Below are positions 10,444 to 26,301 of a DNA stretch of 64,000 nt, in pieces. Position 1 is the first letter of the stretch; every line of letters starts with the position of its first letter. The stretch is taken from contig PLZD01000058.1 in NCBI GenBank assembly GCA_003151975.1, positions 52,046 through 116,045 on the forward strand. Direction: 5' to 3'. The DNA comes from Elusimicrobiota bacterium. GTDB lineage: Bacteria > Elusimicrobiota > Elusimicrobia > UBA1565 > UBA9628. A program made the translations under genes and the position numbers. The notes beneath the pieces were generated by a model, which did no database searches, had not been told where the DNA came from, and saw only the letters and a program-made list of their open reading frames with translations.

Positions 10444-11799
10444 ATGATCGATCTGGTCATCATCGGCGCGTGCCTGGCCGCCGCTTTGCTGCTCGGCGCA
10501 CGCCCGCCGGGTGCTGCCGCGGGCCTTTCCGACTACGTCGTCGCGGGCCGGCGCCTGACCTTGCCGCTCTTCGTGGCGACCTTGGTGCCGAGCTTCTACG
10601 GCGGCGTGCTCGGCGTCGGCGAGTTCACCTGGCAGAACGGGCTGTCCAATTGGCTCGCGATGGCCTTCCCTTATTACGTCTTCGCCGCGCTCTACGCGTT
10701 GTTCCTGGCTGGGCGCGTGCGGCTCAAGGAAGGCCTGACCATACCCGACCACATCGAATCGGCCTACGGCCGGCCCGCCGCGGCGTGGTCGGCGTTTCTG
10801 GTCTTCTGGCTGGCCAGCCCCGCCGACGAACTGCTGATGCTCGGCACAGTCGCATCACTTCTGTTGGGTATCGGTCTTCCCGCAGCGATGACGCTCTGCG
10901 CGGCTTTCACCGTTCTGCTGCTGCTGCGCGGCGGGCTCAGATCGGACGTCGGCGCCAACCGCCTCCAATTCGTCGTCATGTTCGCGGGCTTTGCGCTGAT
11001 CCTGCCGTTTGCCTGGACTCGCGTCGGCGGCTTCACCCATCTCAAGATGATGCTGCCCGCCGCCCACTTGCGCTGGACCGGGGATTTGAGCCCATGGAAG
11101 CTCGCCGGCTGGTGGCTCATCGCGGTGTGGACCTTGGTCGACCCGGCCTTCCACCAGCGCTGCGCCGCGGCCAAAGACCCGCGCACCGCGCGCATCGGCA
11201 TCTTCGTCTGCATCATTTTCTGGGCGGTCTTCGATTTCATGACGACGGCCGCCGGCCTCTTCGCGCGCGCCTGCCTGCCGAGTCTCGCCAACCCCGTGCT
11301 CGCCTTTCCCATGCTGGCCGACCTGCTTCTGCCGAGAGTCGCGCGCGGGATTTTTTTCGCGGCCATGATCTGCTCGATGCTCGCGGCGCTCCAAAGCAAG
11401 TGCCTGCTCTCGGGCTTGAGCCTCGGCAAAGACGGCCTCGGGCGCTGGCTCGGCGCAAATGAGGAGCTCCAGAAAACCTGGTCGCGCGGCGCCATGGCCG
11501 TGTCGGCGCTCTTGGCGCTGGGCTTAGGGCTTGCGATCCCGTCGGTCGTCGGCTTGTGGTGGGCGATCGGTTCTTCCATAATTCCCGGATTGCTGCTGCC
11601 TTTGCTCGGCGTCTACTTCCCGAGTATGCGCGCGAAGCCCGCGTGGGCGTTGTCTTCGTCTCTGCTCGGCGTTTTGTCGTCGGGCGCGTGGCTGATCTGG
11701 GAGAACAAACTGGGCGCGGCTCCGCTCGGAATCGAGCCGATGTTCCCGGGACTCATTCTTTCCGCCGCCGTGTGGTCAGGCTCCTTCCTAGCCCCATAA
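10444..11799 (+). CDS. sodium:solute symporter (SSS) family transporter
   Basis: 451 residues with about 12 hydrophobic helices through the inner membrane. LSDYVVAGRRLTLPLFVATLVPSFYGG near the N-terminus is the SSS pattern (xDYxxAGR then a helix with a broken GG), and WTLVDPAFHQRCAAAKD matches the conserved loop after TM6-7 seen in pantothenate/proline-type symporters. Substrate cannot be assigned. Start ATG at 10444 supported by the -10 at 6 bases. A hairpin (11791-11832) overlaps the stop codon. Confidence 0.88.
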   Translation: MIDLVIIGACLAAALLLGARPPGAAAGLSDYVVAGRRLTLPLFVATLVPSFYGGVLGVGEFTWQNGLSNWLAMAFPYYVFAALYALFLAGRVRLKEGLTIPDHIESAYGRPAAAWSAFLVFWLASPADELLMLGTVASLLLGIGLPAAMTLCAAFTVLLLLRGGLRSDVGANRLQFVVMFAGFALILPFAWTRVGGFTHLKMMLPAAHLRWTGDLSPWKLAGWWLIAVWTLVDPAFHQRCAAAKDPRTARIGIFVCIIFWAVFDFMTTAAGLFARACLPSLANPVLAFPMLADLLLPRVARGIFFAAMICSMLAALQSKCLLSGLSLGKDGLGRWLGANEELQKTWSRGAMAVSALLALGLGLAIPSVVGLWWAIGSSIIPGLLLPLLGVYFPSMRAKPAWALSSSLLGVLSSGAWLIWENKLGAAPLGIEPMFPGLILSAAVWSGSFLAP

Positions 11800-11832
11800 G
11801 TCCCGGTTGTCTCTGGGACCTATGCCTGGGGC
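11791..11832 (+). repeat. imperfect hairpin overlapping the symporter stop codon
   Basis: GTCCC (11800-11804) pairs with GGGAC (11815-11819), CATA (11795-11798) with TATG (11821-11824), and GCCC (11791-11794) with GGGC (11829-11832) across a small bulge. No T tract follows, so it is not a standard intrinsic terminator; it may stabilise the 3' end. Confidence 0.4.
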
Positions 11833-11874
11833 CTTGCGGGCCAAAGGACTCTAAGACGCGCGCGGCATCGGGCT

Positions 11875-11880
11875 TATAAT
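11875..11880 (+). promoter_or_regulatory. consensus -10 element of the candidate small RNA
   Basis: Perfect TATAAT at 11875-11880 in a 190-base intergenic stretch. The predicted transcription start is 11887. No good -35 was found at 16-18 bases. Confidence 0.55.
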
Positions 11881-11886
11881 TAAATC

Positions 11887-11975
11887 GTGACGCTCGTACC
11901 CGACATGACATCACGATGACCCCCGCGGGCGTCACACTGAGGCCCTCCGCCTGATCCGGAGGGCCTCATTATTTA
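11887..11975 (+). ncRNA. candidate small structured RNA (or leader) with its own terminator
   Basis: Bounded by TATAAT (11875-11880) and an intrinsic terminator (11938-11975). The 5' end GTGACGC (11887-11893) can pair with GCGTCAC (11929-11935), enclosing about 35 bases; an alternative 7-base pairing ATCGTGA (11884-11890) / TCACGAT (11911-11917) uses the same 5' bases. A 10-codon reading frame (GTG 11887 to TGA 11919) starts exactly at the predicted transcript start, so a leaderless leader peptide is an alternative reading. The TauE-type transporter starts at 11990, just after the terminator, so this could be an attenuator instead of a free RNA. No known riboswitch class recognised. Confidence 0.45.
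11938..11975 (+). terminator. strong intrinsic terminator
   Basis: Twelve-base perfect stem TGAGGCCCTCCG (11938-11949) / CGGAGGGCCTCA (11957-11968), 7-base loop, then TTATTTATA. It ends the candidate small RNA and would also stop read-through from the symporter gene. Confidence 0.85.
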
Positions 11976-11977
11976 TA

Positions 11978-11983
11978 TAGACT
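11978..11983 (+). promoter_or_regulatory. possible -10 element of the TauE-type gene
   Basis: TAGACT at 11978-11983, six bases before GTG at 11990, immediately after the terminator. Weak -35; call rests on the recurring spacing. Confidence 0.35.
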
Positions 11984-11989
11984 GCCACC

Positions 11990-12769
11990 GTGCTCGAAGG
12001 CTTCACGCTCTCCCAGATTTTTTTTCTCGCGATCCTGATTTTCTTCGCGGGCGTCGTCGACGCGCTGGCCGGCGGCGGCGGCCTGATCACCTTGCCGGCG
12101 TATCTCGCCGCGGGCTTGAACCCCGCCCTGCTGCTCGGGACCAACAAGCTCGCCTCCTCGATCGGCACGCTGGCGGCCGCCGTCAAATATCAACGCGGGC
12201 ACGCGATAAGGCTCGGCGCTCTCGTCCTGCCGCTGTCGGCCTGCGCGCTGGGCTCCCTGCTCGGCGCGCGGCTCTCGTCTCTGATCGACCCCGCGAAGTT
12301 CAAATACATCCTGCTCGTCGTGCTGCCCGGGGTGGGCTGGCTCGTCTACTCGCACCACCAGTTCGGACGCGAGGACAACAGCAAGGAGCTCGGGGACGCG
12401 CTCGTGTTCCGGCGCACGATGCTGATGAGCCTGGGCTTTGGCGGCTACGACGGCTTCATCGGCCCCGGCACGGGGACTTTCTTCGCGCTGGCGCTCGCGC
12501 GCTGGTGCCGCTACGACCTATTGGGCTCGACGGCGCGCGCCAAATTCCTTAATCTCGCGACGAACTTGGCGGCGCTCGGATTTTTTCTGCACGCGGGCCG
12601 CGTGCACATCCGCTTGGGCCTTACAATGGGAGCCGTCAGCGTGCTCGGGAATTGGACCGGCTCGCACCTGGGCCTCAAGAAAGGCGCCGACGCGATCCGG
12701 CCCGTCGTGATCCTCGTCTGCGCGAGCCTCTTCGTGAAGCTTCTCGCGGACAGCCTTTTGCTAAAATAG
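11990..12769 (+). CDS. TauE/SafE family membrane transporter (sulfite/organosulfonate exporter type)
   Basis: 259 residues, about 8 transmembrane helices in two related halves. The family signature VDALAGGGGLITLPAYLAAGLNP in the first half and GGYDGFIGPGTGTFFALALAR in the second half are both present. Members export sulfite, sulfoacetate or related anions; the substrate here is not deducible. GTG start at 11990 just downstream of a terminator and a possible -10. The next gene begins 4 bases after the stop but has its own -10 within this gene's end. Confidence 0.9.
   Translation: MLEGFTLSQIFFLAILIFFAGVVDALAGGGGLITLPAYLAAGLNPALLLGTNKLASSIGTLAAAVKYQRGHAIRLGALVLPLSACALGSLLGARLSSLIDPAKFKYILLVVLPGVGWLVYSHHQFGREDNSKELGDALVFRRTMLMSLGFGGYDGFIGPGTGTFFALALARWCRYDLLGSTARAKFLNLATNLAALGFFLHAGRVHIRLGLTMGAVSVLGNWTGSHLGLKKGADAIRPVVILVCASLFVKLLADSLLLK
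12762..12767 (+). promoter_or_regulatory. extended -10 promoter, leaderless geometry
   Basis: TGCTAAAAT with TAAAAT at 12762-12767, six bases before ATG 12774, embedded in the last codons of the transporter gene. Confidence 0.5.
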
Positions 12770-13554: not shown

Positions 13555-13599
13555 CTCTATTCCTATTTTAAACGCCTCGAGCGATTTTTCAGGAGAGAT

Positions 13600-14142
13600 A
13601 TAAACAACAAATACGGGCACGGTTACCAAGGAAACAAGGACACAACCCGGGTCAACAACAGGATTTCCGCGAAAGACGTTCGCGTGATTGACTCGGACGG
13701 CACGCAGCTCGGGATCAAGCCCATCTCGGAAGCCTTGGCGATCGCGCGGCAGAGGGGATTCGACCTCATCGAGATCGCGCCCTTGGCCAATCCGCCGGTC
13801 TGCAAGATTCTCGATTACTCAAAGTACAAGTACGAGCAGGACAAGAAGGTGCGCGAGTCCCGGCGCAAGCAAAAAGCGGGGCTTTTGAAGGAAGTGCGTT
13901 TCAAGCCGCATATCGGAATGCACGACCTTGAAGTGAAGATCAAGCACATTTCCGAGTTCTTGGCCGCCCACGACAAGGTGCGCATCACCGTCGTCTTCAA
14001 GGGCCGCGAGATGCAGCACAAGGACATCGGGATGAAGCTTTTAGACACGATCAAAGAGCGACTGGTGGCTCTGGCGGCGGTCGAGCAGGAACCGATCCCC
14101 GACCGCAACCGCCTCGTCATGACTTTGATCCCGAAGCACTAA
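13600..14142 (+). CDS. infC: translation initiation factor IF-3, non-canonical ATA start
   Basis: Binds the 30S subunit and enforces start codon fidelity. The product has the full IF3-N (RVNNRISAKDVRVID...GFDLIEIAP...CKILDYSKYKY) and IF3-C domains, about 180 residues. The only ATG/GTG/TTG in frame is GTG 13684, but conserved N-terminal residues RINxxISAxDVRVID lie upstream of it, and stops occur at 13546-13551. The only plausible start with a Shine-Dalgarno site is ATA 13600, 4-5 bases after AGGAG (13591-13595). Non-AUG starts in infC are a known autoregulatory device, since IF3 discriminates against them. Head of infC-rpmI-rplT-pheS-pheT. Confidence 0.93.
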   Translation: MNNKYGHGYQGNKDTTRVNNRISAKDVRVIDSDGTQLGIKPISEALAIARQRGFDLIEIAPLANPPVCKILDYSKYKYEQDKKVRESRRKQKAGLLKEVRFKPHIGMHDLEVKIKHISEFLAAHDKVRITVVFKGREMQHKDIGMKLLDTIKERLVALAAVEQEPIPDRNRLVMTLIPKH

Positions 14143-26224: not shown

Positions 26225-26231
26225 GGCCGAT

Positions 26232-26237
26232 ATTATA
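26232..26237 (-). promoter_or_regulatory. -10 element of the DenV-like gene, leaderless geometry
   Basis: Consensus TATAAT on the minus strand (26237-26232), 7 bases before ATG 26224. Its -35 zone (26255-26260) touches the left half-site of the Xre operator region. Confidence 0.55.
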
Positions 26238-26259
26238 CCCCGCGCCCGCGCCGGCGATT

Positions 26260-26295
26260 AGTCCATTATAGCTTGACAAAGTCCATTATTGGACT
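26260..26295. promoter_or_regulatory. candidate Xre operator: palindrome plus direct half-site
   Basis: AGTCCA-TTAT-TGGACT at 26280-26295 is a perfect palindrome that fills the promoter spacer. The string AGTCCATTAT also occurs at 26260-26269, exactly 20 bases (two helical turns) upstream. This is a typical layout for autorepression by an antitoxin. Confidence 0.65.
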
Positions 26296-26301
26296 TATAC
26301 T
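26273..26301 (+). promoter_or_regulatory. consensus sigma70 promoter of the xre-res operon, leaderless geometry
   Basis: TTGACA (26273-26278), 17 bases, TATACT (26296-26301), six bases, ATG 26308. Near-perfect promoter whose spacer is the operator palindrome, so it should be strong when derepressed. Confidence 0.8.

Follow-up and report, generated by a model that had tools for sequence, protein, structure and literature searches.

Three described arrangements come closest to the spacer between the symporter and TauE genes studied here. An intrinsic (Rho-independent) terminator between tandem genes combines a G+C-rich perfect stem, a short loop and a T-rich tail on one strand, and the start of the next gene follows directly behind it. 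The spacer shares these features, in a layout that recurs in its own genome; however, 138 nt separate the terminator here from the stop codon of the preceding gene, and this interval holds a TATAAT and a stem. Leaderless mRNA promoters of bacteria carry a -10 box approximately 6 nt before ATG or GTG and no Shine–Dalgarno sequence, as is also seen here, but the candidate -10 box of TauE is a weak match and the box at 11875 leads only into a 10-codon frame. Peptide-leader attenuators, such as that of the trp operon, place a short frame and a terminator 5' of the regulated gene. The spacer resembles them in this respect; however, it contains neither an antiterminator nor a run of regulatory codons, and TauE seems to start independently past the terminator.

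We consider it likely that the locus, which looks ordinary, is the boundary of two head-to-tail transcription units and that TauE has an independent, leaderless start. Polymerase arriving from upstream, on the symporter mRNA and/or on an RNA of approximately 85 nt starting from the TATAAT, would be stopped by the 12-bp terminator. TauE would then be transcribed from its own promoter directly past the terminator, with a transcript beginning at or beside its GTG start codon.

A predicted terminator between the symporter and TauE genes

We analyzed the locus within the window, i.e., the whole stretch of 64,000 nucleotides, and took genome statistics from 390 kb of its own genome, sampled as stretches, in which a simple purpose-made gene caller identified 281 genes. 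The spacer between the symporter and TauE is 190 bp long (Table 1). As the original prediction stated, it contains a 12-base-pair terminator with a T-rich tail: all 12 pairs of the stem (11938-11949/11957-11968) are perfect, 9 of them are G-C, and the 7-nt loop and the tail TTATTTAT complete the element. Alone, the terminator folds at -24.3 kcal/mol (z -4.8), and the T tail is present for the + strand only. That is, as in intrinsic terminators, a T-rich stretch comes immediately after a stable G+C-rich hairpin. Perfect stems of at least 10 bp with a T-rich tail occur only about half a dozen times in the 390 kb of the genome; this rarity places the terminator beyond chance, and the element is probably functional.

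TauE had been described as beginning 15 bases after the terminator. The closeness held, although the exact distances are 21 bases from the stem and approximately 13 from the T-rich tail. The distance on the upstream side speaks against a simple boundary: other gene-trailing terminators in the sampled genome lie roughly 15-30 nt past the stop codon, compared with 138 nt here. Therefore, something else may be transcribed between the symporter and the terminator. Two small hairpins (GTCCCGG...CTGGGAC and a GGGCC-type hairpin) lie directly 3' of the symporter stop at 11800-11845 of the window; we found no relatives of them, and their fold is not significant (z -1.0).

Table 1. Features of the symporter–TauE region (window coordinates).
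Feature	Position	Strand	Remarks
Sodium:solute symporter family gene	10444..11799	+	Upstream neighbour, same strand; Pfam PF00474, E 2.6e-18
TATAAT, possible -10 box	11875..11880	+	6 nt, then GTG at 11887; no recognisable -35
10-codon frame GTG...TGA (stop inside coordinates)	11887..11919	+	Begins at predicted transcript start; codon use unlike genes
Predicted 11-pair closing stem, possible short RNA	11887..11935	+	Arms 11887-11897 / 11925-11935
Intrinsic terminator	11938..11976	+	Perfect 12-bp stem, 7-nt loop, T-rich tail
Candidate leaderless TauE start (TAGACT, 6 nt, GTG)	11978..11992	+	
TauE/SafE family transporter gene	11990..12769	+	Pfam PF01925, E 3.9e-37

Leaderless gene starts in the genome

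At 55 of the 281 called genes, a TANNNT-type box sits 4-8 nt (mostly 6) ahead of an ATG or GTG in frame, compared with 3 and 9 for control codons, indicating that leaderless or near-leaderless starts are common in this genome; 117 genes, in a slightly different count, showed a Shine–Dalgarno match only. The TauE gene of the window has this layout (TAGACT-N6-GTG) and no Shine–Dalgarno sequence. TAGACT may serve as the -10 box of TauE; against this, it matches the -10 consensus at only 4 of 6 positions, and no -35 accompanies it. Many orthologues of this TauE gene have leaderless-type starts; several of those in the same family show such layouts, for example TTGACC followed by GAGAAT 5-6 nt before ATG, TATAAT 5 nt before ATG, and GACAAT 6 nt before GTG.

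Two other strong terminators (contig positions 126546 and 149822) each have a leaderless-type start of the next gene within a few bases behind them; therefore, the short distance between the terminator and TauE is that of a normal gene boundary here. Together with the strong, locally rare + strand terminator and with stems that stay clear of it, these observations argue for two independent units. Leaderless-type starts appear common in the family (the sampled genome and the TauE orthologue loci L010-L026), some of them directly behind a strong terminator. Because leaderless starts can sit right behind terminators, finding a strong terminator just in front of a gene does not by itself point to attenuation in this lineage. 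The significance of this point is small beyond annotation.

The TATAAT box and a possible short RNA

The perfect TATAAT of the original prediction was confirmed, and a -10 box ending at this position is expected, from promoter spacing, to start a transcript at approximately 11886-11888. A scan for -35/-10 promoters passed none. We counted 17 TATAAT in a 46-kb intergenic sample; hexamers with these letters in another order averaged 11.5, a control mean that is inflated because palindromes were counted on both strands. The box is thus only modestly enriched between genes. Both of the 7-base pairings that had been reported are present, that of 11887-11893 with 11929-11935 as part of the 11-pair stem in the predicted fold, and that of 11884-11890 with 11911-11917. 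The 10-codon frame likewise begins at the predicted transcript start.

We then compared the folds with controls. At -19.8 kcal/mol (z -3.3 versus its own shuffles), the fold of the 51-nt body that separates the TATAAT from the terminator is matched in strength by 7% of the intergenic 51-mers with similar GC, and by 15% when all intergenic 51-mers are counted, so that the body structure is ordinary for the genome. The whole of 11887-11975 folds with a z of -6.3. Two competing 7-bp stems occurred in 0.4% of shuffles and in 0.9% of intergenic 57-mers, which is mildly unusual, yet this feature was chosen after the fact.

We built one covariance model for the 86-nt element and another for the 68-nt body, both from the single window sequence. 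In 147 genomes of the class, with the genus represented by this genome alone, they gave a strong score only for the locus's own copy (1e-20 and 4e-23, respectively); the conserved stems that such a search would reveal in relatives were thus not found among them. The other covariance matches were weak, and those inspected were mostly ordinary terminators. DNA searches of the same 147 genomes returned, besides the own copy, only short matches, several of which fall within coding sequence; that is, the relatives searched lacked the conserved sequence or structure expected for a small RNA gene. No Rfam family passed its gathering cut-off in the whole window (the best match of the region was 6C RNA, at 19.5 bits versus a cut-off of 47), and no known RNA family fits the element. 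Five relatives (L016, L019, L022, L023 and L024) have the symporter next to TauE, with gaps of none to approximately 50 bp and no hairpin in the gap; therefore, the 190-bp spacer appears lineage-specific. A TauE scan of genome contigs returned mostly Sphingomonas and Sphingopyxis, which are too distant for leader alignment.

We also considered other identities for the region. A repeat or mobile insertion was ruled out, as the element is single copy in the genome. The upstream part (11796-11872) gave only short, near-chance matches as a recurrent motif. A coding-gene remnant was rejected because the similarity is short, covering approximately 40 bases (83% and 80%) of a gene that by eye resembles an Xaa-Pro aminopeptidase in L002 and L004, two congeneric species, and because the frame has no Pfam match.

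Short RNA or incidental 3' sequence

Of the proposed transcript of approximately 90 bases, the bounding elements were confirmed; no -35 is recognisable, no relative turned up in the 147 genomes of the class, and many intergenic stretches are as structured as the body. The chances that a short lineage-specific RNA is made from the TATAAT are about even. Slightly below this we place an orphan RNA of approximately 85 nt that acts in trans, with the 11-pair stem closing it and the terminator ending it, a reading that is compatible with the transcription boundary. The TATAAT, stem and terminator stand in the correct order for it, and the fold of the complete element is strong. In addition, two intergenic TATAAT sites far from protein gene starts sit just 5' of tRNA genes; such boxes are therefore able to serve RNA genes here. 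The missing -35, the modest enrichment of TATAAT, the ordinary body, and the covariance and Rfam results weigh against it. Most of these same observations fit a tentative reading, to which we give somewhat less than an even chance, in which the TATAAT is unused, the terminator ends the symporter mRNA and the upstream stem is incidental 3' untranslated sequence: no -35 is present, the intergenic frequency of the box is close to background, and 7-15% of intergenic stretches equal the stem in strength. However, the terminator is unusually distant from the symporter stop codon, and TATAAT-N6-GTG has the form that leaderless gene starts take locally. A confirmed short RNA would add to the lineage-specific small RNAs from a group that has been little studied.

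Proposed attenuation of TauE

It had also been suggested that the competing stems could switch and that TauE may be regulated by attenuation. An attenuator, in which a transcript from the TATAAT runs into TauE and either the competing stems or translation of the short frames sets the action of the terminator, would account for the succession of a promoter-like box, a short frame, competing stems and a terminator 5' of a transporter gene. A second short frame of 12 codons (ATG at 11916) also overlaps the first at ATGA and has its stop in the terminator loop. However, three bases required by the competing stem, 11884-11886, precede the predicted transcript start (approximately 11887); from 11887 only 4 pairs are left, and forcing them costs 6.3 kcal/mol. 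Switching between the stems is therefore not supported. Neither 7-bp stem overlaps the terminator, and folding of the short RNA revealed no antiterminator pairing with a terminator arm. Without the terminator, the best fold lost 19.2 kcal/mol in the short RNA and approximately 10 kcal/mol in read-through RNA from the symporter; i.e., we found no alternative pairing that disrupts the terminator in the way an attenuator requires. The two short frames do not show the codon use of genes (log scores of -4.5 and -0.3), and the arrangement is not conserved with TauE.

TauE itself lacks a Shine–Dalgarno sequence through which it could be translated from a long leader, and it shows a leaderless layout, which suggests a start of its own past the terminator and makes attenuation doubtful. 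We thus regard the attenuator as very unlikely. A genus-specific leader RNA, in which the leaderless 10-codon frame is coupled at ATGA to the 12-codon frame and ribosomes on the latter hold the terminator open so that transcription proceeds into TauE, strikes us as exceedingly improbable.

Other features of the window

Two TATAAT boxes approximately 33 bases apart lie on the minus strand at 26225-26300, preceded by an inverted repeat (AAGTCCA-ATAA-TGGACTT) that looks like a repressor operator. In addition, the infC (IF3) frame is open 5' of its first ATG/GTG/TTG at 13684 (window 13591-13690), and an ATA in frame (13600-13602) stands behind a Shine–Dalgarno-like AGGAGAG (13591-13597). This infC may start at the rare AUA codon, reminiscent of E. 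coli infC, whose start codon is AUU.
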